From assembly GCA_001769295.1 (NCBI GenBank), contig MEOR01000058.1, forward strand, positions 240 to 34,565: DNA of 34,326 nucleotides, read 5' to 3'. Each line of letters starts with the position of its first letter. The stretch's first letter is position 1. The notes below the pieces were generated by a model. The model searched no databases. It had not been told where the DNA came from and was given only the letters and a program-made list of their open reading frames with translations. A program made the position numbers and the translations under genes. The stretch comes from Bacteroidetes bacterium GWF2_49_14 (lineage in GTDB: Bacteria; Bacteroidota; Bacteroidia; Bacteroidales; UBA12481). Below are positions 3,275 to 27,407 of this stretch, piece by piece.

Positions 3275-4481
3275 AGTTCCCTACCCTCCCCGCGACGGAG
3301 GTGCCATTGCCAGCCTTTCGCTTGCAACCGGTCTGGCCAGGGCCGGGCATGAGGTGGTGGTGCTGGCGATGAATACCACCAAACACAAGGCGTCCGTAGA
3401 GACGCATAATCATGCGTCTCGAAATTATGAGACGCATGATTATGCGTCTCTACACCCGTCTCTAAAGTTGATTTCAGTGCCGGTGGATACCAGAATACGG
3501 TGGTTTCCGGCGTTGATGAATCTGCTTTTTTCGCGCCTGCCTTACAACGCCGTCAGGTTCCGCTCCAGGGAATATGCAGCCGCGCTCAGGAGATTGCTGG
3601 AAAAGGAGAAATTCGACTTCGTCCTGCTCGAAAACCTCTATACCTTCCTGTATCTCGATATTCTGGAAAGTTTCCAGGGCACCCGTATCATTATGCGGTC
3701 GCACAATATCGAGCATGAAATCTGGCTGAGGACCGCAAAGGCTACCCCGGGCCTGAAAGGAATGTACCTGAAAATCCTGGGGTCAAGGATCCGGAGGTTC
3801 GAATTAAAACAGATCAACCGCTATTCGGCGGTTGTACCGATTTCCGAACACGACGGAGCGCAGCTCACCGCGTTTGGAAACCACAAGCCCATGTTTATTT
3901 TACCTACAGGTATCGAACTGTCGTCCAAAGAATTAAAACCCCAGCCAGGGATCGGATCCTTGGTTGGGCATCTTGGAGCTCTCGACTGGCTGCCAAATCA
4001 GAACGGAATCCGGTGGTTCCTCCAGGAGGTTTGGCCGATCGTAAAGAAAAGTATCCCCAAAGCTGAGTTTCACCTGGCCGGTCGCAATTCTCCAAAAGAT
4101 TTTGCCGCAGAAATGCAAGCGATGGGTGCCTTTTTTCATGGAGAGATCGAGGATGCACAAAGTTTTACCGCCGGGTTGTCGGTCATGGTTATCCCGCTCT
4201 TCTCCGGCAGCGGTATGCGTATCAAGATGCTCGACTACCTTTCTGAGGGAAAGGCAGTGGTTTCAACCACCATCGGAGCCGAAGGCGTTTGCCTGACACC
4301 CGGCACAGAAAGCCTGGTTGCCGACCGTCCGGTTGATTTCGCAGCTGCCGTGATCACGCTCCTGCGCTCACCCGGACTCAGAAAGGAGATGGGCGAAAAA
4401 GCCATTGAGCTGGTACGGAATAACTATTCCAATGACTTATTGATCAAGAGGTTTGTTGATTTTTTAACCCGATTACCATGA
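3249..4481 (+). CDS. Glycosyltransferase family 4 with an in-frame palindromic insert
   Basis: A 410-residue GT-B fold glycosyltransferase of the GT4 type. The N-domain opens with MRILQLTNKVPYPPRDGG, the acceptor-side glycine loop. The C-domain has HLGALDWLPNQNGI (about 241-254), the strand FHLAGRN, and the donor-binding stretch VIPLFSGSGMRIKMLDYLSEGKAVVSTTIGAEG (split here as about 314-331 and 332-346). The donor and acceptor are unknown. I chose the ATG at 3249, where the family motif begins, although the frame is open further upstream; it overlaps the permease gene by 26 bases. Codons 50-69 are made from an inverted repeat of two palindromic units (3396-3453) and give a His/Thr/Ser-rich segment (VETHNHASRNYETHDYASL). 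This lies in the N-domain linker after the second strand, away from the donor site, so the enzyme may tolerate it. The stop overlaps the next start (ATGA). Confidence 0.93.
   Translation: MRILQLTNKVPYPPRDGGAIASLSLATGLARAGHEVVVLAMNTTKHKASVETHNHASRNYETHDYASLHPSLKLISVPVDTRIRWFPALMNLLFSRLPYNAVRFRSREYAAALRRLLEKEKFDFVLLENLYTFLYLDILESFQGTRIIMRSHNIEHEIWLRTAKATPGLKGMYLKILGSRIRRFELKQINRYSAVVPISEHDGAQLTAFGNHKPMFILPTGIELSSKELKPQPGIGSLVGHLGALDWLPNQNGIRWFLQEVWPIVKKSIPKAEFHLAGRNSPKDFAAEMQAMGAFFHGEIEDAQSFTAGLSVMVIPLFSGSGMRIKMLDYLSEGKAVVSTTIGAEGVCLTPGTESLVADRPVDFAAAVITLLRSPGLRKEMGEKAIELVRNNYSNDLLIKRFVDFLTRLP
3396..3453. repeat. 25-bp perfect inverted repeat of two palindromic units inside a gene
   Basis: The arm at 3396-3420 is exactly the reverse complement of 3429-3453, with an 8-base spacer GAAATTAT. 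Each arm holds GAGACGCAT and ATGCGTCTC around a 4-base centre (AATC in the left arm, GATT in the right), so each arm also folds on itself. The same unit with centre TATA lies at 10056-10083. The reading frame of the glycosyltransferase runs through all 58 bases. This is a dispersed palindromic repeat; the sequence shows no transposase or clear target duplication. Confidence 0.92.
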
Positions 4482-5647
4482 TCGCAATCCTCCTTTTCTG
4501 GCTTTGTGTTGCAGCTGTTTTCCACAGTTATATACTTTTCCCGCTTTTATTGAAACTGTTTGCCCACCTGAAGTCAGGGCAATCCGTCATTCATCCGGCC
4601 CCTGACGCGCCTCCTCAGGTCTCCATTCTGATGTCGGCATTCAACGAGGAGGAGGTTATTTCCGAAAAGGTACGGTCGGCCTTCAGCAGCAGGTATCCGG
4701 CGGAAAAATTCGAGATACTCGTGGGATCCGACGGCTCGTCCGACCGTACTCCTGAAATCCTCATGGAGCTTGAAAAAGAGTTTCCCGCCCTTAAATCCTT
4801 TGTTTTCAGCGAACGCCGGGGCAAACCAAATGTGATCAGCCTTCTGGCCGGAAAAGCTTCCGGCGAGATCCTCGTTTTCACGGATGCCAATGTGCTGTTT
4901 GATGAAGATACACTGTCACAAATGATGGCCCCGTTTGCAGATCCGCTCATGGGACTTGTGGATACCCGGATGATTAATCTGGGCATGAAGAAAGAGGGGA
5001 TCTCTTTCCAGGAGAAGGCCTATATATCACGGGAGGTAGGAATCAAGGACCTTGAAAGCCGCCTGTGGGGCACGATGATGGGCCCCTTCGGCGGTTGCTT
5101 TGCCATCCGTGCAAAACTGTTTGAACCGATTCCCAGAAATTTCCTGGTGGATGATTTCTTTCTGAACATGAAAGTGCTTGAATCGGGCTACAAAGCGGTA
5201 AATAATCCCGCGGCCTGCGTTTATGAGGATGTCTCAAACGATGCAGCTATTGAATTCAGGCGCAAGATCCGCATCGCTACCGGTAACTTTCAGAATCTGG
5301 CGCGGTTCCGGAAACTGCTTTTTTCGCGGCGGCCCGGCCTTTCATTCTGTTTCTGGAGTCACAAGGTATTGCGCTGGATCGGCCCTCTTTTTATCCTGGG
5401 TGCACTCTTTAGCCTGATATTCATTGCCTTTACCCATCCATTCTATCGTATACTACTGATAATCAATGTAGTAGTTTTACTGATCCCGGGTCTCGATTTT
5501 GCGCTGAAAAAGCTAAATTTGCATTTTCCTTTTTTCCGGTTCATTTCCCATTTTTTGGCCATGAACCTGGCATTGGCGAAAGGACTGTTACGATATCTGA
5601 AAGGGGTAAAAACGAATGTCTGGCAACCAACCAAGCGACATCAGTAA
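4478..5647 (+). CDS. Membrane glycosyltransferase family 2
   Basis: A 389-residue GT-A fold glycosyltransferase anchored in the inner membrane. There is one N-terminal membrane segment (about 2-22) and three near the C-terminus (about 299-319, 322-340 and 352-370). The cytoplasmic catalytic part has [12 protein letters not shown] (48-59), SDGSSDRT (84-91), the metal/nucleotide motif TDAN (135-138) in place of a plain DxD, an acidic VDDFFLNMK (224-232, the expected catalytic-base region) and RRKIR (261-265), where processive GT2 enzymes carry QxxRW. It is therefore similar to the BcsA/Ndv-like group but with a degenerate QxxRW. The substrate is unknown. The start codon overlaps the GT4 stop by four bases and its end overlaps ribBA by 32 bases, so translation is probably coupled. 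With the permease gene it points to envelope polysaccharide assembly. Confidence 0.92.
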
Positions 5648-6875
5648 AAGACTCGACACCATTGAAGAGGCCATCGAGGCGATCCGAAACGGTGAGATCA
5701 TCATTGTTGTGGATGATGAAGACCGTGAGAACGAGGGTGATTTCATTGCAGCGGCCCAGCTGGCAACGGCCAAAACGATCAACTTCATGGCCCGCTTCGG
5801 CCGGGGGCTGATCTGCGCCCCGCTGCCTGAGGAGCGTTGCGAGGAGCTCGACCTTCCCTTGATGGTAGGCAAGAACACCTCTTTCCATGAAACCGCCTTT
5901 ACCGTTTCTATCGACCTGCTCGGTCAGGGCTGCACCTCCGGGATCTCCGCACAGGACCGCTCCAAAACCGTTCAGGCATTGGTCGATCCCCGATCGAGGC
6001 CTGAGGATTTCGGCCGGCCGGGGCATATCTTTCCCCTGATAAGCAAGAGCAAAGGTGTACTCCGAAGGGCCGGACATACTGAAGCCGCAGTAGACCTCAC
6101 CCGCCTTGCAGGGCTTCGGCCAGGCGGGGTGCTTGTTGAGATCATGAACGAAGACGGCAGCATGGCCCGTCTGCCCGAGCTGCTGGAGATCGCGTCTGAG
6201 TTCAGGCTCCGGATCATAACCATCAAGGACCTTATAGCTTACCGACTGAGACAGGAGAGCCTGATCGATCGGGGGGTTCGGGTTAACCTTCCAACAGCCT
6301 TCGGAAACTTTGATCTGATCCCTTATGTCCAGAAGTCGAACGGACTCGAACACATTGCCCTGGTCAAAGGAAGCATCGAACCCGATGAGCCGGTCCTGGT
6401 GAGGGTTCACTCCTCCTGCATAACCGGCGATATTTTCGGATCCTACCGTTGCGATTGCGGCTCCCAGCTTCACGCCGCCATGCAGATGATTGAAAAAGAG
6501 GGCCGGGGAGCCCTGATCTATATGAACCAGGAGGGGCGCGGCATCGGATTCTTCAATAAAATGAAGGCTTATCAGCTGCAGGAGCAAGGCCAGGATACCG
6601 TTGAAGCCAACCTCAACCTCGGTTTTGAGGATGACGAAAGGGATTATGGCGTTGGCGCCCAGATACTAAGGGACCTCGGTATAAAGAAAATCAGGCTGAT
6701 CACCAATAATCCGCGCAAGCGCGCAGGGCTTGAGGGATATGGTATCAATATCGTTGAAAACGTGGCTCTGGAAATCGAGCCGAACACCCATAATGCCTTT
6801 TATTTGCAGACCAAGCGTGATAAAATGGGACATTTTCTGCATCTTCATCCCGACTTGGACACTCACCATCACTAA
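5616..6875 (+). CDS. ribBA: Bifunctional DHBP synthase / GTP cyclohydrolase II (RibBA)
   Basis: This 419-residue enzyme feeds both branches of riboflavin synthesis in the cytoplasm. The N-domain converts ribulose 5-phosphate to 3,4-dihydroxy-2-butanone 4-phosphate, and the C-domain opens GTP to the diaminopyrimidine intermediate. The N-domain (about 12-210) carries [12 protein letters not shown] (32-43), the [10 protein letters not shown] and GHTEAAVD motifs and VEIMNEDG, all key parts of the DHBP synthase site. The C-domain (about 220-410) carries [20 protein letters not shown] with the three zinc cysteines C268, C279 and C281, and [10 protein letters not shown]. Both sites look complete. 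The length is normal for fused RibBA. The start overlaps the GT2 gene by 32 bases, so this housekeeping gene appears to ride on the envelope operon. No FMN riboswitch is seen, and no other rib gene is nearby. Confidence 0.97.
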
Positions 6876-10055: not shown

Positions 10056-10083
10056 GTAGAGACGCATTATAATGCGTCTCTAC
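10056..10083. repeat. Perfect 28-bp palindrome of the GAGACGCAT family
   Basis: Positions 10056-10069 are the exact reverse complement of 10070-10083. The core has arms GAGACGCAT and ATGCGTCTC around TATA, the same unit that occurs twice inside the glycosyltransferase gene at 3396-3453. The panB stop codon (TAG, complement of 10083-10085) shares a base with the palindrome edge. As RNA it forms a strong hairpin in the panB-to-rlu intergenic space, but no T-run follows, so it is not a classical terminator. Confidence 0.92.
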
Positions 10084-10898
10084 TAATATTGTTCTTTGTC
10101 GTTGGGAAAATCGCACTTTTTCACATCATCGATATACCGGGTAACGGCGCCCGTGATTTCATCAAACAGGTTGTGATACCTGCGCAAAAAGCGCGGTGAG
10201 AAGTCCTGCGTGATGCCCAGCATATCATGGAGCACCAGAACCTGTCCATCGCAATACTGCCCGGCTCCGATTCCGATGGTGGGAATCCTAAGGGAGGCTG
10301 AGACTCTTCCTGCAAGATCGGCAGGAATCTTTTCCAGAACGATGGCAAAACAACCCGTTTCCTCCAGTAAAGTTGCGTCATGCATCAGTTTTTCCGCTTC
10401 GGTGTCCTCGGTTGCGCGAACCACATAGGTGCCAAATTTATGAATCGATTGGGGTGTGAGCCCGAGATGCCCCATCACAGGGATCCCGGCTGTAAGTATT
10501 CTTTGAACCGATTCGACGATCTCCTGCCCGCCTTCCATCTTTACGCCCCCTGCACCGGTCTCTTTCATGATCCGGATAGCGGACTGAAGGGCTTCCTTGG
10601 AATTGCCCTGATAAGTCCCGAAAGGCATGTCAACAATAACCAGTGCACGCCGGATTCCCCTGACCACCGAAGCACCATGGTAGATCATCTGGTCAAGCGT
10701 GATTGGTAGTGTGGTTTCGTAACCGGCCATAACATTCGAAGCAGAATCCCCGACCAGAACCACGTCAATTCCTGTGTTATCCAGTATCCGCGCAATCGAG
10801 TAGTCATAAGCCGTAAGCATGGCGATCTTCCTGCCCTGGCCCTTCATTTCCTGAAGGACATGAGTCGTAACCCTTTTTATCTGCTGATGAACTGACAT
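10083..10898 (-). CDS. panB: 3-methyl-2-oxobutanoate hydroxymethyltransferase
   Basis: The first committed enzyme of pantothenate synthesis, moving a hydroxymethyl group from 5,10-methylene-tetrahydrofolate to 2-oxoisovalerate to make ketopantoate. The 271-residue TIM-barrel enzyme shows [34 protein letters not shown] (metal Asp), [28 protein letters not shown] and [14 protein letters not shown] (catalytic Glu); all key positions are present. The frame can be read from a TTG at 10907, but the ATG at 10898 gives [18 protein letters not shown], the usual start of Bacteroidota PanB. A promoter box lies at 10943-10950. The stop codon falls at the edge of the dispersed palindrome. panC and panD are not nearby. 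Confidence 0.96.
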
Positions 10899-10942
10899 AA
10901 TCCGCAACTGATGTTTGTAATGAAAACAGTACTTTTACCGCA

Positions 10943-20296: not shown

Positions 20297-21679
20297 TTGA
20301 ACCGGCCCATCCTTTTTCTTTTCCTGTTTGCTCTCGGAGCACTAATCCCTGTTCAATCGCAGGTGATCCGGGTTGCTTGTGTAGGTAATTCCATAACGTA
20401 TGGCGCCGGGATCGGCAACAGGGAAAAAATGTCCTATCCCGCTCAACTGCAAGCCTGGCTGGGACAGGAGTATGATGTTAGAAATTTCGGCGTTTCAGGG
20501 TCAACCCTGCTGAAGAAAGGCGACAAACCGTATTGGAAGGAGCCGGTGTTCAAAACGGTTCTGGATTTTAATCCCGATATTATCATCATCAAGCTGGGTA
20601 CCAATGATTCGAAGCCCCAGAACTGGAAGTTCGCCGGGGAATTCGAACAGGATTTCCGTGACCTGATTTCGGTTTACAAGAACCTGCCCTCGAAGCCGAG
20701 GATTCTGCTGGCCTTGCCGGTGCCTGTTTTCGTTCCTGACAAATGGGGGATCCGGGATTCGGTCGTCAGGAATGAGGTCATACCAAAAATCAAGAGCGTG
20801 GCAAAAGCCGAAAAGCTTCAGACGGTCGATCTGTATACCCCCCTTCTTCCTTACAAATATGCTTTCCCGGATGATGTTCATCCCAACCCGATCGGAGCAT
20901 CCTTTATGGTTGAGGAGATTTACCGGGCGCTTTTTTACCGTGATAAAATGCACAGTTCCGGTTACCTGAACACAGCGGTCCTGGCAGCTCCCGGTGCGGA
21001 ATGCCGGGGTGCGGCAGCCGGATGGGGAGAAGGCAAGGACTGGTACAGTCAGTTTGAGGCTATCAATGAGATAGGGAAAACATCAAAACCCGATGTTGTT
21101 CTTCTGGGCAATTCCATAACCCAGGGATGGGGCGGCGATGGCCGTACCGTCTGGTCGGTTGCTCCTGATATCTGGGAATCGCGGCTCAAACCTCTCAATG
21201 CAGCAAACTTTGGCATTTCGGGTGACCGTACCCAGCATGTCCTCTGGCGTGTCCGGAATGGAAATTTTGATGTGGTGAAACCCGATGTGGTTGTTTTGGA
21301 AATCGGAGTAAACAATTTCCCGTATCATTCTTCGGAAGAGATTGCTGAAGGAATAAAGGCCGTCGTTACAGCGCTTCTGAAAAAACTGCCGGAAACAAAA
21401 ATCCTGCTGTATGGCCCGCTGCCGACAGGTAAAGACAATTCGGATCCCAACAGGAAAAAATACAACGAAATACATAAGCTCATCCGGGATCTTTCGAACA
21501 GGAAAAACGTTATTTATCAGTCGCTCAACGAGCAGTTCATCCATCCGGACGGATCGCTGGTTGAAGGCCTGATGTCGCCCGACGCCATCCATCTCACCCA
21601 GGCAGGGTATGCAGTCTGGGCCGGTTCGATGGTTCCGGAGATTGAGAAGCATATCATAAACAAACCGATCCCGAAATGA
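20297..21679 (+). CDS. Tandem SGNH/GDSL hydrolase, two domains in one chain
   Basis: An exported protein of 460 residues made of two consecutive SGNH esterase-type domains. After a signal peptide (about 1-22), domain one (about 24-218) has VACVGNSITYGAG (Ser block), VSGSTLL, IIIKLGTNDSK (GxND block) and DDVHPNPIGA (Asp-His block), similar to sialate O-acetylesterase-like enzymes. Domain two (about 255-455) has VVLLGNSITQGWGG, GISGDRTQHVLWR, VVVLEIGVNNF and SPDAIHLTQAGY, similar to PAF-acetylhydrolase-like enzymes. Both sets of key residues look present, so both domains may be active on acylated or acetylated glycans; that is inference. The start is TTG (20297), since no in-frame ATG precedes the signal peptide. 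Its stop overlaps the next start (ATGA). Confidence 0.92.
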   Translation: MNRPILFLFLFALGALIPVQSQVIRVACVGNSITYGAGIGNREKMSYPAQLQAWLGQEYDVRNFGVSGSTLLKKGDKPYWKEPVFKTVLDFNPDIIIIKLGTNDSKPQNWKFAGEFEQDFRDLISVYKNLPSKPRILLALPVPVFVPDKWGIRDSVVRNEVIPKIKSVAKAEKLQTVDLYTPLLPYKYAFPDDVHPNPIGASFMVEEIYRALFYRDKMHSSGYLNTAVLAAPGAECRGAAAGWGEGKDWYSQFEAINEIGKTSKPDVVLLGNSITQGWGGDGRTVWSVAPDIWESRLKPLNAANFGISGDRTQHVLWRVRNGNFDVVKPDVVVLEIGVNNFPYHSSEEIAEGIKAVVTALLKKLPETKILLYGPLPTGKDNSDPNRKKYNEIHKLIRDLSNRKNVIYQSLNEQFIHPDGSLVEGLMSPDAIHLTQAGYAVWAGSMVPEIEKHIINKPIPK

Positions 21680-22239
21680 TACGCCGGCTGACCTTTATCC
21701 TTCTCGCTTTCCTCATGATGGTGCCGCTATGCGCACAGGAAGCGGAGAAGCCGGAAATCAGGCCGGTTCAGATCTACCTTGGAATCCAGCCCGGCCTTGA
21801 GGTAATCCCATTCGATGAATACAGATCTGCGTTTAATATTAATATTCTGCCCCTGACGCTTGAATATGCCATCGACCGTCATTGGGGCATCCGCGTTCAT
21901 TCCATCTGGAATATCCAGGTAAGGCCGGAATTTCCGGCAGTGATTTCCAGCATCGGCGCCGAAATCTCCGTTCCCTACTACTTCCCCCTGAAGAACAGCG
22001 AGGAGGGCCAGAGGGGATTCTATGCAGCCGCAGTCGTCATTCCGGAGTACCGGCCGCTTAACGATTATTATTCCCTGGGGCTTGCCGCAGAAGCCGGATA
22101 TGCTTTTCTATTCAGCAACAGGTTAAGTATAGTCCTGGCGGGACAGGCTGGCATGACCCTGCAAAAGGATCCGGATAATCCTTACATGCGGATCATGCCC
22201 TATTATGCCCCGAGACTCTCTTTGGGATTCTGGTTCTGA
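21676..22239 (+). CDS. Small outer-membrane beta-barrel-like protein
   Basis: I do not recognise a named family. The 187-residue product has a signal peptide (MIRRLTFILLAFLMMVPLCA, cleaved near residue 21) and then alternating hydrophobic-aromatic beta strands such as IYLGIQPGLEVIPF, WGIRVHSIWNIQV, LGLAAEAGYAFLFSNRLSIV and PRLSLGFWF. The C-terminal aromatic residue (Phe) is typical of outer-membrane barrels, so a small 8-strand barrel is my inference. It is translationally coupled to the tandem SGNH hydrolase gene by a 4-base overlap. Its stop is two bases from the stop of the convergent TonB-dependent receptor gene. Confidence 0.75.
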   Translation: MIRRLTFILLAFLMMVPLCAQEAEKPEIRPVQIYLGIQPGLEVIPFDEYRSAFNINILPLTLEYAIDRHWGIRVHSIWNIQVRPEFPAVISSIGAEISVPYYFPLKNSEEGQRGFYAAAVVIPEYRPLNDYYSLGLAAEAGYAFLFSNRLSIVLAGQAGMTLQKDPDNPYMRIMPYYAPRLSLGFWF

Positions 22240-22248
22240 GATCAGAAT
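22235..22248. repeat. Short inverted repeat holding two convergent stop codons
   Basis: TTCTGA and TCAGAA flank GA. The + strand TGA (22237-22239) ends the barrel-like gene and the minus-strand TGA (22242-22244) ends the receptor gene. The hairpin is only 6 bp and has no T-run, so it is at best a weak bidirectional end signal. Confidence 0.5.
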
Positions 22249-24608
22249 GAGGCAGTTAAGCCCGCAAAGAAGTGAATCCCCGCCTGCGGGAAGTATCCGT
22301 CCATTTTTCCCCTGTTCCCTTCGTAGATATAACTGTATACCCATGCATTGGTCTCATATTGCTCGTTAAACAGATTGTTGATCTGCAGGAACAGGGAAAG
22401 ATCATTGAACCCCTTGGGATGCAATGACCAGGAGATCATGAGGTTATTTACCCAATAAGGATCAATCATCCTTTCATCTGATGAGGTATTGTCGGTATGC
22501 TGACTGCCCACAAACCGGGAGTCAAGACTGAACCGCAGGTCAGGAAGAGCCAGCCAGGTGATCCGGCCGGCGGAAATCACAGACGGTGAGAATGCAATAT
22601 CCGTGGTACCCAGAAAGAACTCTTGCTGAACTCCGGTATCCCAATCATCCACATACTCGGTAAACTGCCTGATCTTGTTGGTACTAAGCGTGAGATTGGC
22701 CTCCACCCTAACCCTCTTCACAGGCTGCCATGTCCCGCAAAATTCGATGCCCGCCCGATAGCTGTCAGGGATGTTGATCATCACCGGTGCACCCACATCA
22801 TTAATCCTGCCGGTCAGTACCAGCTGGTCGGTATAATCCATCCAGTATAGGTTCACAGAACCCAATAAGGTACCTTTTCCCGATTCCAACCCGGCTTCAA
22901 GGTCACGGAGCTGCTCCGGCCTGACCACTTCACCAGGCAGGGCATCGGTAAAATTGCTGCGCTTCGGCTCCCTGTTGGCAATGCCATAGCTGATAAAAGC
23001 CCGTGAGCCGTTGCTGATCCTGAAGTTTAAGCCCGCCTTCGGGTTAATAAAATTGTATGGGTGACTTTGGCTGATGTCTCTCAGGTCATCGTCCTTGCCG
23101 TCGATGGAATACCGGATCAGGCGGTACTGCAGGTCGGCAAAAAGATCTATGCGGTCCGTAACGGCCATTTCAGCCTTGACAAACTGATTCAATTCCAGCT
23201 TCTTACCATTGCTGAAATAGTACTGATGATCCGGAGCGGCAGATGAGGCAAGCCTCGACCAGATGACCCGACCGAAGTGGTCGCCGGAATAATTGCTGAT
23301 TCCACCCCCGTAAGTCAGGCTCAGACGTTGTCCCTGATGCGTTACGGAATAAACGGCTCCATAAAACCGGTTGTCGAGCCATTTCCTCCTGACAAGATCG
23401 GTTTCACCTAGGGTGTCCGTTCCGACAACAACCGGCGGTATCAGGTAACCTGCCAGGCTTTCGCCCTCCCGGTACTGTTCATAGTAACCGCTTCCCCGGG
23501 TATAATGGAGGGAAACATTGAGATGCAGATCGGACCTGAGCCTGCTTGACCACTGCACCTGGGCATGTTGTTGCTTATAGTCATCCACCTCATTTTCATA
23601 GGTATAGGGATTGAAGGTCCGTTGTGTCCCCAGCAACTCCGAAGGCACTCCTCCCCAGGCCTGGTAGGTCCTTTCGTAGCCTGAGAGAAGGGTGGCTTTC
23701 ACGATATTCTTTTTTGAGAAATAGCCTCCCGATAGGCTCATGGAATTCAGGTCGGCAAACGCCCTGTCAATATAACCATCGGTATGGATCCGGGAAAACC
23801 GGGTATCCACATTCCAGTGGCTGTTAATCAGTCCGGTACCGGCGGAGACGCTTGCCCTCGAGGTATTAAAGGATCCGCCGGAAAGGCTGAGCGAAGCATT
23901 CGGGCGGCTGTTTACGGATGTAGTCTGCAGATTAATATTGGCCCCGAATGAAGCGGCTCCCTGGGTTGACGTCCCGACGCCCCGTTGGACCTGAATATTT
24001 TCCGTCGAACCCATGATGTCAGGAATATCAACCCAATATACTTCATGGGATTCACTGTCGTTGAAGGGAACCCCATTGATGGTCACATTGATACGGGAAG
24101 GATCAGTACCACGGATCCGGATGCCCGAATAACCAACGCCCAGACCGGCATCGGAAGTGACGGTTACCGAAGGGGTGGCGGCCAGCAGGTATGGGACATC
24201 CTGTATTTTCGAGGAATTCCGGATATCCTCTTTTGTGATTGCCGACCAGGCAACCGGCGCATTCTTACCGGCCCTTGTTGCTCTCACGGTTACCTCTTCT
24301 GCCAGGATTGAAGCCGGAAGAAGCTTTATCAAGAGGGTAACGGAAGCTGACAGGTTGACCGGAACTACCCGGGGTTCAAACCCCAAATAAGAAACCGTAA
24401 GGTGGTATGCACCCGGCTTAAGGCCGGTCACCAAAAATCGGCCTTCATTCCCAGAAGAAACACCGATAAGTGAATTTGAAATTAGCACATTTGCCCCGAT
24501 AAGAGGCGCTCCTGATTCATCAGTTATTGTCCCGGTTATACTTAATTGTGCTTTTGCAGCCAGGACGATGAAGCAGGAGACTGCCAAAACAGCCATCCTT
24601 TTATACAT
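22242..24608 (-). CDS. TonB-dependent receptor under TPP-riboswitch control
   Basis: An outer-membrane, TonB-energised import barrel of 788 residues. A signal peptide (about 1-20) is followed by a carboxypeptidase-regulatory-like domain (LSITGTITDESGAPLIGANV ... YHLTVSYLGFEPRVV, about 22-105), the plug (about 118-235, with GVGYSGIRIRGTDPSRINVTINGVPFND, given in parts, and VQRGVGTSTQGAASFGANI) and the barrel, ending in a terminal Phe (GLTASF). No TonB box is obvious to me. The leader RNA contains a TPP riboswitch, so the cargo is most likely thiamin, a phosphorylated form or a precursor; riboswitch-controlled receptors of this kind were described for Bacteroidota in comparative studies of thiamin genes. 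No SusD partner or other thi gene is adjacent. Confidence 0.94.
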   Translation of the reverse strand: MYKRMAVLAVSCFIVLAAKAQLSITGTITDESGAPLIGANVLISNSLIGVSSGNEGRFLVTGLKPGAYHLTVSYLGFEPRVVPVNLSASVTLLIKLLPASILAEEVTVRATRAGKNAPVAWSAITKEDIRNSSKIQDVPYLLAATPSVTVTSDAGLGVGYSGIRIRGTDPSRINVTINGVPFNDSESHEVYWVDIPDIMGSTENIQVQRGVGTSTQGAASFGANINLQTTSVNSRPNASLSLSGGSFNTSRASVSAGTGLINSHWNVDTRFSRIHTDGYIDRAFADLNSMSLSGGYFSKKNIVKATLLSGYERTYQAWGGVPSELLGTQRTFNPYTYENEVDDYKQQHAQVQWSSRLRSDLHLNVSLHYTRGSGYYEQYREGESLAGYLIPPVVVGTDTLGETDLVRRKWLDNRFYGAVYSVTHQGQRLSLTYGGGISNYSGDHFGRVIWSRLASSAAPDHQYYFSNGKKLELNQFVKAEMAVTDRIDLFADLQYRLIRYSIDGKDDDLRDISQSHPYNFINPKAGLNFRISNGSRAFISYGIANREPKRSNFTDALPGEVVRPEQLRDLEAGLESGKGTLLGSVNLYWMDYTDQLVLTGRINDVGAPVMINIPDSYRAGIEFCGTWQPVKRVRVEANLTLSTNKIRQFTEYVDDWDTGVQQEFFLGTTDIAFSPSVISAGRITWLALPDLRFSLDSRFVGSQHTDNTSSDERMIDPYWVNNLMISWSLHPKGFNDLSLFLQINNLFNEQYETNAWVYSYIYEGNRGKMDGYFPQAGIHFFAGLTASF

Positions 24609-24628
24609 CGTTTTTTACAATTAAAACC

Positions 24629-24647
24629 GGCCAAAGTCCCCGTGGCC
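24629..24647 (-). promoter_or_regulatory. Possible attenuator hairpin behind the riboswitch
   Basis: On the minus strand GGCCA pairs with TGGCC around a 9-base loop and is followed by GG and TTTT. It lies between the aptamer and the receptor ATG at 24608, where an expression platform would be. Stem and T-run are short, so a ribosome-blocking role is as likely as termination. Confidence 0.4.
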
Positions 24648-24649
24648 AT

Positions 24650-24728
24650 TCTCCCTTCGCCGGCATTATCCGGATCAGGTACTAAGGGTATGATCTCAGC
24701 CCGTTGTTTTCAGGCACCCCCTTAGAGG
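24650..24728 (-). promoter_or_regulatory. TPP (thiamin pyrophosphate) riboswitch
   Basis: Read on the minus strand, the aptamer shows the conserved THI-box words in order: GGGGGTGCC (complement of 24713-24721), GGGCTGAGA with CTGAGA at 24694-24699, ATACCCTTAGT, then ACCTGATCCGGATAATGC and CGGCG (24658-24680), and the closing GAAGGGAG. P1 can form from CTCT with GGAG at the two ends. TPP binding normally represses the downstream gene, here the TonB-dependent receptor 42 bases further on. A promoter box lies at 24735-24742, so the RNA would begin right at the aptamer. Confidence 0.96.
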
Positions 24729-24734
24729 ACGGGA

Positions 24735-24742
24735 CAAAGATA
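24735..24742 (-). promoter_or_regulatory. -7 promoter box of the riboswitch-receptor unit
   Basis: On the minus strand this reads TATCTTTG, an exact TAnnTTTG match, and places the RNA start near 24728, the first bases of the riboswitch. No clear -33 TTTG is seen. Confidence 0.6.
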
Positions 24743-24750
24743 ATAAAATT

Positions 24751-24778
24751 GACCGCTGACCGATGACCGCAGACCGAC
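24751..24778. repeat. Four tandem 7-bp GACCGnn repeats
   Basis: GACCGCT, GACCGAT, GACCGCA and GACCGAC follow each other without a gap. They occupy the place where the -33 region and upstream elements of the riboswitch promoter would be, between that promoter and the terminator of the thioredoxin gene. Confidence 0.85.
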
Positions 24779-24782
24779 GGTA

Positions 24783-24820
24783 CAAAAAAAAAGCCGACCA
24801 GGAAAAAATCCCGGCCGGCT
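24783..24820 (-). terminator. Intrinsic terminator of the thioredoxin gene
   Basis: On the minus strand a 12-bp stem (AGCCGGCCGGGA with TCCTGGTCGGCT, two G-T pairs) closes a T5 loop and is followed by nine T. It lies 33 bases after the thioredoxin stop codon and insulates the receptor unit from it. Confidence 0.9.
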
Positions 24821-24852
24821 AAACCCAAACCAAACAAACCAAAATCACAAAT

Positions 24853-25218
24853 CTAATCCAAATCAACTTTTAAAACATCAGAAAAAGCTTTTACGAAAGA
24901 ATCCTTGGGCATTGCCCCTTTAGCCATCGCCGGTTGTCCCTCTACGGGAATAAACAGGATCGACGGGATACTTTGTATCTGGAACATGCCAGCAAGTTCT
25001 CTTTCTGCTTCAGTGTCAACTTTATAGATATCAATTTTCCCTTTATACTCTGTTGCAAGTTCTTCCAGAACCGGAGCTACCATTTTGCACGGTCCGCACC
25101 AATCTGCATAAAAATCAATAACAGCAGGCCTTTCCCCTTCGAACTTCCATTCGCTGTTAGCTTCAAAATTAAAAACCTTCGACTTGAATGTTTCCTGTGT
25201 TAAATGCTCAAGTGCCAT
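24853..25218 (-). CDS. Thioredoxin
   Basis: A 121-residue cytoplasmic thioredoxin-fold disulfide reductase. The active site is C41-GP-C44 in [20 protein letters not shown], the cis-Pro lies in [11 protein letters not shown], and the buried Asp is in VIDFYADW. An N-terminal extension of about 12 residues precedes the fold compared with E. coli TrxA. No signal peptide is present. The frame can be read from a TTG at 25251; I prefer the ATG at 25218, which has AAAGGAA 6 bases upstream. A possible promoter is TTTG (complement of 25263-25266) with TAACTTAG 16 bases on. A strong terminator follows. It may reduce partners such as the peroxiredoxin at 13996, but that is inference. Confidence 0.94.
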
Positions 25219-25361
25219 GCAATTCCTTTCTGGTTTCACTAAGTTAGACAATTTCCGGATAACAAAGTTTAAATCTCCCGAAAATCCGGGTGTAAATTTA
25301 CTTATTTATTTAACTAGATATATCAATATCTGTGCCTTTCCTCTAATGAAGGAAAAAATGG

Positions 25362-25369
25362 TAATTTTG
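25362..25369 (+). promoter_or_regulatory. -7 promoter box of the CCA-adding-type gene
   Basis: TAATTTTG matches TAnnTTTG exactly and would start RNA near 25376, 12 bases before the ATG at 25388. In-frame ATGs upstream (25348, 25358) would lie before the RNA start, which supports 25388 as the true start. Confidence 0.55.
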
Positions 25370-25387
25370 TCAGTTTTAGTGAACAAA

Positions 25388-26851
25388 ATGGCAATAGAAC
25401 AAGGCGAGCACCTTAACCATCCTGTATTTAAGTCAGTTTCATCCGTAGCACAGGAATTGGGGCAACCCGCATTTGTTATCGGAGGTTATGTTCGTGACCT
25501 GATTCTGCAGCGTCAATCAAAGGATATCGATATTGTCACCCTGGGCAGCGGAATTGAACTGGCGCAAAAGGTTGCAGCTCTCCTGGGAAGCAAGAAAATT
25601 CAGATTTTCCGTACGTTCGGCACGGCGATGATCCGTTACCATGATTTTGATATTGAATTTGTAGGAGCCCGCCGGGAGTCATACTCCCCCGATTCGAGAA
25701 AGCCAGCCGTAGAAAGCGGCACGCTGGAGGATGATCAGAAGCGCAGGGACTTTACAATCAATGCGCTGGCAATCAGCCTTAACCCTGAAAACTTTGGGGA
25801 GCTGATCGATCCCTTTAACGGGATTCAGGACCTGCAGGACCGGTTGATCCGGACACCGCGGGAGCCTGACGCCACTTTCTCAGATGATCCTCTCCGGATG
25901 ATGAGGGCTATCCGTTTTGCCACTCAGCTGAAGTTCCACATTGAAGGGGAGACCTTTACCTCGATTACCCGGAACCGTGAGCGCATAAGCATAGTTTCAA
26001 CGGAGCGGATATCCGATGAACTCAACAAAATTATCCTGTCGCCGAAACCTTCGATCGGCTTCCGGCTGCTCGATGAATCGGGCCTTCTGCAACTGATTTT
26101 CCCTGAATTGCATGCGCTGAAAGGAATTGAAGAAAAGAATGGAATCAGGCACAAGGACAATTTCTATCACACGATCCGGGTGCTGGATAATATTTGTCAG
26201 AATACCGATGATCTCTGGCTCCGGTGGGCTACCCTCCTCCATGATATCGCAAAACCGGTGACCAAGCGGTTCGATCGGGAGAATGGCTGGACCTTTCACG
26301 GGCACAATCACCATGGTGCGCGGATGGTGCCGGTTATATTCCGCAGAATGAAGCTCCCGATGAATGAGAAGATGAAGTTTGTGGAAAAAATCGTCAACCT
26401 GCACATGAGGCCGATCGTATTGTCGCAGGAAATTGTGACCGATTCGGCAGTAAGGCGTCTGCTGTTTGAAGCCGGTGATGACATTGATGATCTGATGACC
26501 CTGTGCGAAGCTGATATAACTTCCGGAATCCGAGAAAAAGTCGACCGATATCTGAACAATTTTCAATTGGTCAGGCAAAAACTGATCGAGATCGAGGAGA
26601 AAGACCGGGTCCGCAACTGGCAGCCGCCGATCAGTGGCGAGGAGATCATGGAGGTTTTTGACCTGGCCCCCAGTAAACCTGTCGGTATTCTGAAAAACCG
26701 GATTAAGGATGCCATACTTGACGGGATCATCCACAACGACCGGGAAGAGGCCTGGGAACTTATGATACGGTCAGCAGCAGAAATGGGGCTATCGCCGAAG
26801 CCGGGCTTCGAAAAACCATTGACCAACATCTCTACGCAGCATGAAAACTGA
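25388..26851 (+). CDS. CCA-adding tRNA nucleotidyltransferase family protein with HD domain
   Basis: A 487-residue class II nucleotidyltransferase. The head domain has [20 protein letters not shown] (GGxxRD at 32-37 and the catalytic DID at 46-48), [25 protein letters not shown] and [16 protein letters not shown], the template region that in CCA enzymes selects CTP and ATP. An HD phosphohydrolase domain follows with RHKDNFYHT and [11 protein letters not shown] (about 260), fused as in many Bacteroidota. It should add or repair the 3' CCA of tRNAs; the tRNA gene at 1199-1272 lacks an encoded CCA. It could instead be a poly(A)-polymerase-like relative. The frame is open from 25184, but the promoter box and family start favour 25388. 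It overlaps the next gene by 11 bases. Confidence 0.93.
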
Positions 26852-27407
26852 TTTTAAACCCGGCACCATGGTTTACCCGGTGCCGGCCGTTCTGGTAAGT
26901 TGCGGCAGTCAGCCGGATGAATATAACCTGATTACCATTGCCTGGACCGGCACCGTTTGTACCCATCCGCCCATGTGCTATATCAGTGTACGGCCTGAGC
27001 GGCACTCCTACGAAATCCTGAAGAGAACCGGTGAGTTTGTCATCAACCTGACCACAATCGAAATGACCAAAAAGGTTGACTGGTGCGGAGTCAGATCAGG
27101 AAGGGATTTCAATAAATTCCAGGAAATGAAGCTGACTCCCGGACCCTCGAAAACCATTCAGGCTCCCATCGTAATGGAATCCCCGGTCAATATTGAGTGC
27201 AGGGTTACAGAGATCAAAGAGCTTGGCTGCCACCATATGTTTCTTGCCGAAGTGACCAATATCCAGGTCAATCAAAAACTGATTCATCCCGACACCGGAA
27301 AACTCAACCTGTTGGATTCAAGCCTGATCACGTATGTCCATGGAAGCTATTGCGTGGTCGGGAAAAGGATTGGGACGTTTGGGTACAGCGTGTCGAAGAA
27401 GACTTAG
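26841..27407 (+). CDS. Flavin reductase family protein (split-barrel FMN-binding)
   Basis: A 188-residue protein of the flavin-reductase-like (FMN-binding split barrel) family. Marks are the opening [13 protein letters not shown], then [24 protein letters not shown], given as about 29-52 in parts, [16 protein letters not shown], and the C-terminal [20 protein letters not shown]. It binds FMN and in some cases NAD(P)H; the natural substrate is not evident. It is cytoplasmic. The start overlaps the end of the CCA-adding-type gene by 11 bases, so the two are translationally coupled. The stop codon falls in the first units of a degenerate GA-rich repeat (27400-27460). Confidence 0.92.

Follow-up and report, generated by a model that had tools for sequence, protein, structure and literature searches.

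A TPP riboswitch ahead of a TonB-dependent receptor gene in a Bacteroidota genome, and a NadR-like candidate for the missing thiamin kinase

Introduction

What does a TonB-dependent receptor bring into the cell when its gene stands alone behind a TPP riboswitch, and how is that cargo turned into TPP in a lineage that apparently must take TPP from outside, yet lacks the usual enzyme for activating imported thiamin? Both questions are raised by a 34,326-nucleotide stretch of DNA from Bacteroidetes bacterium GWF2_49_14 ('the window'), located on contig MEOR01000058.1 (C58) of a 3.5 Mb assembly in 163 contigs, estimated to be 92.6% complete. As described in excerpts of PMC5613172, B. thetaiotaomicron has the receptor OMthi (BT2390), encoded behind a TPP riboswitch, together with pnuT-tnr3 (BT2396-2397), and receptor or transporter mutants that are also without synthesis require about ten times more thiamin. 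A riboswitch-receptor pair as such is ordinary for Bacteroidota and serves to assign a cargo; in the lineage of the window the pair also leads to a candidate for the missing thiamin kinase.

A TPP riboswitch precedes the receptor gene

An initial annotation made from the letters alone proposed a minus-strand TPP riboswitch with all conserved THI-box words, directly ahead of a receptor gene. The covariance search bears this out: in an Rfam search of the whole window, RF00059 matches above its curated cut-off (Table 1) over all 105 model positions (1-105, E 8e-10), the sole further Rfam match being a tRNA at 1199-1272, and the words GGGGGTGCC, GGGCTGAGATCATACCC and ACCTGATCCGGATAATGCCGGCGAAGGGA are all found in the aptamer. 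The receptor ORF starts 25 nt past the end of the match; judged by eye, most relatives share its start ATG (24608), and the window alone has another in-frame ATG, 12 nt downstream.

Table 1. Features of the riboswitch-receptor locus, in coordinates of the window
Feature	Coordinates	Strand	Basis or description
TonB-dependent receptor, OMthi/Omr1 type, 788 aa	22242..24608	minus	Pfam: CarboxypepD_reg PF13715, plug PF07715, beta-barrel PF00593
Possible hairpin GGCCA...UGGCC	24629..24647	minus	by eye and single-sequence fold; loop holds P1 3' strand
TPP riboswitch aptamer, RF00059	24634..24731	minus	61.2 bits vs cut-off 54.3
Displaced P1, 3' strand (GGGGAC), proposed	24636..24641	minus	about 10 nt beyond usual place
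Displaced P1, 5' strand (GUCCUC), proposed	24725..24730	minus	RNAalifold consensus, nine family leaders; pairs with 24636-24641
TAnnTTTG promoter box (TATCTTTG)	24735..24742	minus	read from sequence, 5' edge of aptamer

The promoter box that had been noticed at the 5' edge of the aptamer is also a recurrent feature. Of 33 riboswitch-receptor leaders, 28 (among them 9/9 from the window's family) have a TAnnTTTG box in the 40 nt preceding P2, at near-constant spacing, as compared to 0.86 expected by chance in the 33 leaders (mononucleotide shuffles). We take this box to be of the Bacteroidota -7 type; by eye, no TTTG-like -33 element is seen upstream of the window's copy.

Among the 12 genomes of the window's family, RF00059 is matched in nine (the window's genome and 8/11 relatives); the three without a match are G010 and G011, both incomplete, and G001, estimated to be about 93% complete. 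More broadly, in a draw of 295 genomes from the order, 260 contain RF00059 matches. The window's own genome (G000) has RF00059 once only in a whole-genome search, at its estimated completeness of 92.6%, in agreement with the annotation of the receptor as a single-gene thiamin regulon member.

While the aptamer resembles a TPP riboswitch in its score, its conserved words and its position in the 5' leader of a thiamin-type gene, it differs from the RF00059 model in the P1 helix. Conventional P1 is poorly paired in the window, with three of five pairs non-standard, and J2/4 carries an A-to-U change relative to most relatives; folded as a single sequence, the leader has no unusual stability (z -1.1). 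These two departures would fit a decayed aptamer whose receptor is no longer under TPP control, a reading that we regard as highly improbable: the score is above cut-off, the promoter box is kept, and the leader is conserved in nine genomes with an alternative P1, displaced by about 10 nt, that is itself conserved in the family.

The displaced P1, a better fit than the conventional helix, comprises 6 bp, all six of which form in 8/9 family leaders, the 3' strand being GAGGAC in two relatives (family form GRGGAC). The proposal comes from the consensus fold only and we claim no covariation for it: the RNAalifold consensus contains no compensatory change and little covariation, and single-sequence duplex tests are not strong (shuffle p 0.04 to 0.28 across the nine family leaders). 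The GGCCA/UGGCC hairpin, which is absent from the RNAalifold consensus fold and has barely any covariation, is tentatively put forward as the competitor of displaced P1 in the expression platform, ahead of the start codon. An intrinsic terminator was considered as the expression platform and rejected: a U-run follows GGCC in the window and is not kept in most relatives. With 25 nt separating the aptamer from the start codon, and relatives sharing no terminator U-run, control is most likely exerted at translation initiation, where displaced P1 and the hairpin might act as alternative structures.

P1 takes yet another form in two leaders of a different receptor lineage (L058 and L101), in which it has a bulged 3' strand (UACUUC-UCUAA with UUAGA-bulge-GAAGUA), suggesting that P1 geometry varies among these TPP riboswitches.

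The receptor is of the OMthi/Omr1 type

The order riboswitch, then homologous receptor, is found in all nine RF00059-bearing family genomes, with receptor identities of 50-60% in the eight besides the window's own. Outside the family, a homologous receptor lies downstream in 20 of 40 further TPP loci fetched, and wherever the window receptor is the best query it is 38-60% identical to receptors behind TPP riboswitches. Four of these loci (L059, L067, L082 and L085) have the order TPP riboswitch, receptor, then PnuT and TPK, and in L073 receptor, PnuT and TPK all lie within one locus. Solved structures yielded one short match to a SusC homologue and nothing further for the receptor.

The window's riboswitch-receptor pair thus belongs to the control type already known for OMthi/Omr1, as set out in excerpts of PMC5613172, sharing with it a TonB-dependent receptor behind a TPP riboswitch and homologues in receptor-PnuT-TPK operons (BT2390 being known here by its description). 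It differs from OMthi with pnuT-tnr3 in that the window receptor is a single gene, the family has no TPK over cut-off, and the gene for PnuC is located apart from it, with no TPP riboswitch. The thiamin-type cargo that had been assigned through TPP control is supported by the covariance score, by the layout in 8/11 relatives and by homology to receptors accompanied by pnuT and TPK. The accompanying view that the protein sequence itself would be uninformative on cargo does not hold, as the receptor's known OMthi-type homologues likewise indicate thiamin.

Taken with the leader features, the TPP riboswitch very probably governs a one-gene transcript that encodes an OMthi/Omr1-type thiamin receptor; ligand binding, the sign and level of regulation, and the cargo are what we infer. 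Transcription would start from the TAnnTTTG promoter just 5' of the aptamer. At high intracellular TPP the aptamer would fold and receptor synthesis would fall; at low TPP the receptor would be made and would deliver thiamin or a phosphate ester to the periplasm. According to the excerpted PMC5613172, thiamin left the riboswitch-linked OMthi and pnuT transcripts of B. thetaiotaomicron unchanged, which would fit translational control without proving regulation.

In three genomes of one genus (L058, L100 and L101), a gene for an SBP_bac_5-like lipoprotein (by Pfam on L058) lies 18 nt after the riboswitched receptor, and its product is possibly part of thiamin uptake there.

The window's family appears to depend on external thiamin

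As the initial annotation stated, no thiamin gene lies nearby: a Pfam scan of 28 window ORFs turned up none. Genes like ribBA (riboflavin; 5616-6875) and panB (pantothenate; 10083-10907) are present in the window, and thiamin synthesis genes were not found there. The order of genes at 20297-27407 recurs across family genomes: GDSL hydrolase, a 187-190-aa protein of no recognised type, receptor, thioredoxin, CCA-adding enzyme-like protein and flavin reductase. Pfam has no match for the roughly 190-aa protein, whose gene converges with that of the receptor.

We surveyed 37 genomes: the 12 of the family and 25 others picked for a TPP-receptor locus in the same genome or family, and so not a random draw. 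ThiC is found in 0/12 family genomes, TPK in 0/12 by both PF04263 and TIGR01378, and ThiE in 0/12 over cut-off, G009 having a single weak match; the window's genome is among the 12. External thiamin is therefore apparently needed. Among the 25 non-family genomes, TPK is present in 10 (TIGR01378) and ThiE is over cut-off in four (G034, G242, G228 and G184). ThiL is matched in 37/37 genomes tested, 35 of them over cut-off. The family seems, then, to be unable to make thiamin and to be without TPK, yet it retains ThiL, which needs TMP.

PnuC is paired with an AAA_28 protein in genomes without TPK

The search elsewhere in the genome for an inner-membrane transporter, as the initial annotation had suggested, gave a candidate: the sole PnuC match (PF04973) of the window's genome, on contig C87, where its gene overlaps that of a 189-aa AAA_28 protein similar to the NadR kinase. 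No TPP riboswitch is present there, and thiamin specificity is putative. PnuC is matched in 10/12 family genomes and 24/25 others, and it lies beside AAA_28 in 22 of the 27 TPK-less genomes as compared to 0/10 genomes with TPK, AAA_28 having been counted across the 37 genomes only where it is beside pnuC. The exclusion is significant both by genome (Fisher p 9e-6) and by family (p 0.002, excluding f8, the one mixed family).

This pattern, and the presence of ThiL in all 37 genomes, extend the preferred explanation of the receptor to the inner membrane: a PnuC-type transporter would take thiamin across it, the AAA_28 protein would act as a kinase making TMP in place of TPK, and ThiL would make TPP. 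We hold this extension with moderate confidence. Tempering it, the 0/10 count speaks for AAA_28 beside pnuC, and five of the 27 TPK-less genomes are without the pairing: PnuC is not matched in G002, G010 and G161, the gene of G003 is at a contig end, and G067 has PnuC without AAA_28.

The rival reading is that PnuC-AAA_28 carries out ordinary nicotinamide riboside salvage and that thiamin enters by another inner-membrane route, perhaps as directly imported TPP or TMP, so that no thiamin kinase is needed. It has the relationships of the AAA_28 protein on its side. Among characterised proteins, the closest to it are nicotinamide riboside kinases, which also counts against a thiamin kinase; AAA_28 is the sole domain matched in the C87 protein, and its NCBIfam matches are to NadR, in the kinase part only. 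The nearest fold is likewise the kinase part of NadR (Z 21.7, rmsd 2.0, 175 aligned), a likeness that counts for both readings. VIA-align placed NadR first, followed by thymidylate kinases and deoxynucleoside kinases; the matches listed include no solved thiamin kinase, which carries no weight either way. The protein shares the AAA_28 fold and P-loop with the ribosylnicotinamide kinase domain of NadR (8x7f, 6gyf, 1lw7; Z 19-22), and differs from NadR in standing alone at about 175-190 aa, with no adenylyltransferase domain, and in being encoded beside pnuC in TPK-less genomes. Clusters of pnuC with nadR are described for other bacteria in excerpts of PMC7221760, and G002, a genome estimated to be complete, has the riboswitch and no PnuC match. 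In the open-access papers searched, among them excerpts of PMC5613172, PMC12442306, PMC7221760, PMC8552899 and PMC2258182, we found no description of a thiamin kinase resembling NadR, which is not to claim that none is published.

Nicotinamide riboside salvage leaves the exclusion with TPK unexplained, and the transporter itself argues against it: PnuC of the window's genome is closer to a TPK-linked PnuT (37% identity, 141 bits) than to the solved nicotinamide riboside transporter (42.7 bits, phmmer). The PnuC tree (34 rows, fragments shorter than 150 aa left out) points the same way in family f8, where PnuC of G018 (AAA_28 partner present, TPK absent) clusters with its counterpart in G232, which has TPK elsewhere and no adjoining AAA_28 (support 98/96). 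The NCBIfam PnuC-type model matches TPK-linked and AAA_28-linked proteins alike. One PnuC position, in a late conserved WxxxxD/N stretch, does follow the partner, being Asp in 21/22 AAA_28-linked proteins and Asn in 10/12 from TPK genomes, a difference that could mean another substrate. On the AAA_28 side, alignment A1 holds sequences from 12 of the 22 AAA_28-linked genomes (the ORFs of G018 and G037 were mis-extracted). On balance we consider nicotinamide riboside salvage rather unlikely and lean towards the thiamin kinase: the widespread stand-alone NadR-like AAA_28 protein beside PnuC may well replace TPK in many Bacteroidota, completing a receptor-transporter-kinase-ThiL salvage route in lineages without thiamin synthesis or TPK. 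If so, proteins that NCBIfam models tie only to NadR and PnuC are thiamin-salvage genes, and predictions of vitamin auxotrophy across Bacteroidota change.

TPP riboswitches occur near pnuC-AAA_28 in named records

The gene neighbourhoods of AAA_28 relatives in named records bear on the same choice. Of 578 relatives found in a scan with the AAA_28 alignment, the best 80 were kept; alignment A3 comprises 32 of the 61 sequences extracted from their loci. Within these best 80 of 578, PnuC is present anywhere in the locus, not only adjacent, in 66, a homologous receptor in 14 and TPK in none. RF00059 is over cut-off in 13 of the 80 loci (15 matches), a count that excludes L173, found by pattern and below cut-off; the same Rfam scans returned a single cobalamin riboswitch.

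The absence of TPK and the co-occurrence with TPP riboswitches and receptors favour the thiamin kinase, and riboswitches near pnuC-AAA_28 are left unexplained by nicotinamide riboside salvage. The signal is limited by the 67/80 loci that have no TPP riboswitch over cut-off, and by the origin of the 13 positive ones among these best 80 of 578: nine are from Pontibacter or Adhaeribacter, the others being from Marivirga, a Cyclobacteriaceae MAG, a Cytophagales MAG and Mongoliitalea. The Pontibacter-type loci are related to each other and count little as independent cases.

In Marivirga arenosa (L165), a TPP riboswitch at 4304-4399 immediately precedes pnuC-AAA_28, an order that speaks for the thiamin kinase. 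Three TPP riboswitches are found in this locus, ahead of, in order, pnuC-AAA_28, an NMT1/THI5-like gene and the receptor. Genes for such NMT1/THI5-like binding proteins adjoin receptor and AAA_28 genes both here (5548-6569) and in L182 (8147-9091); as the L165 gene has a TPP riboswitch of its own, its product probably takes part in the uptake of a precursor or of thiamin.
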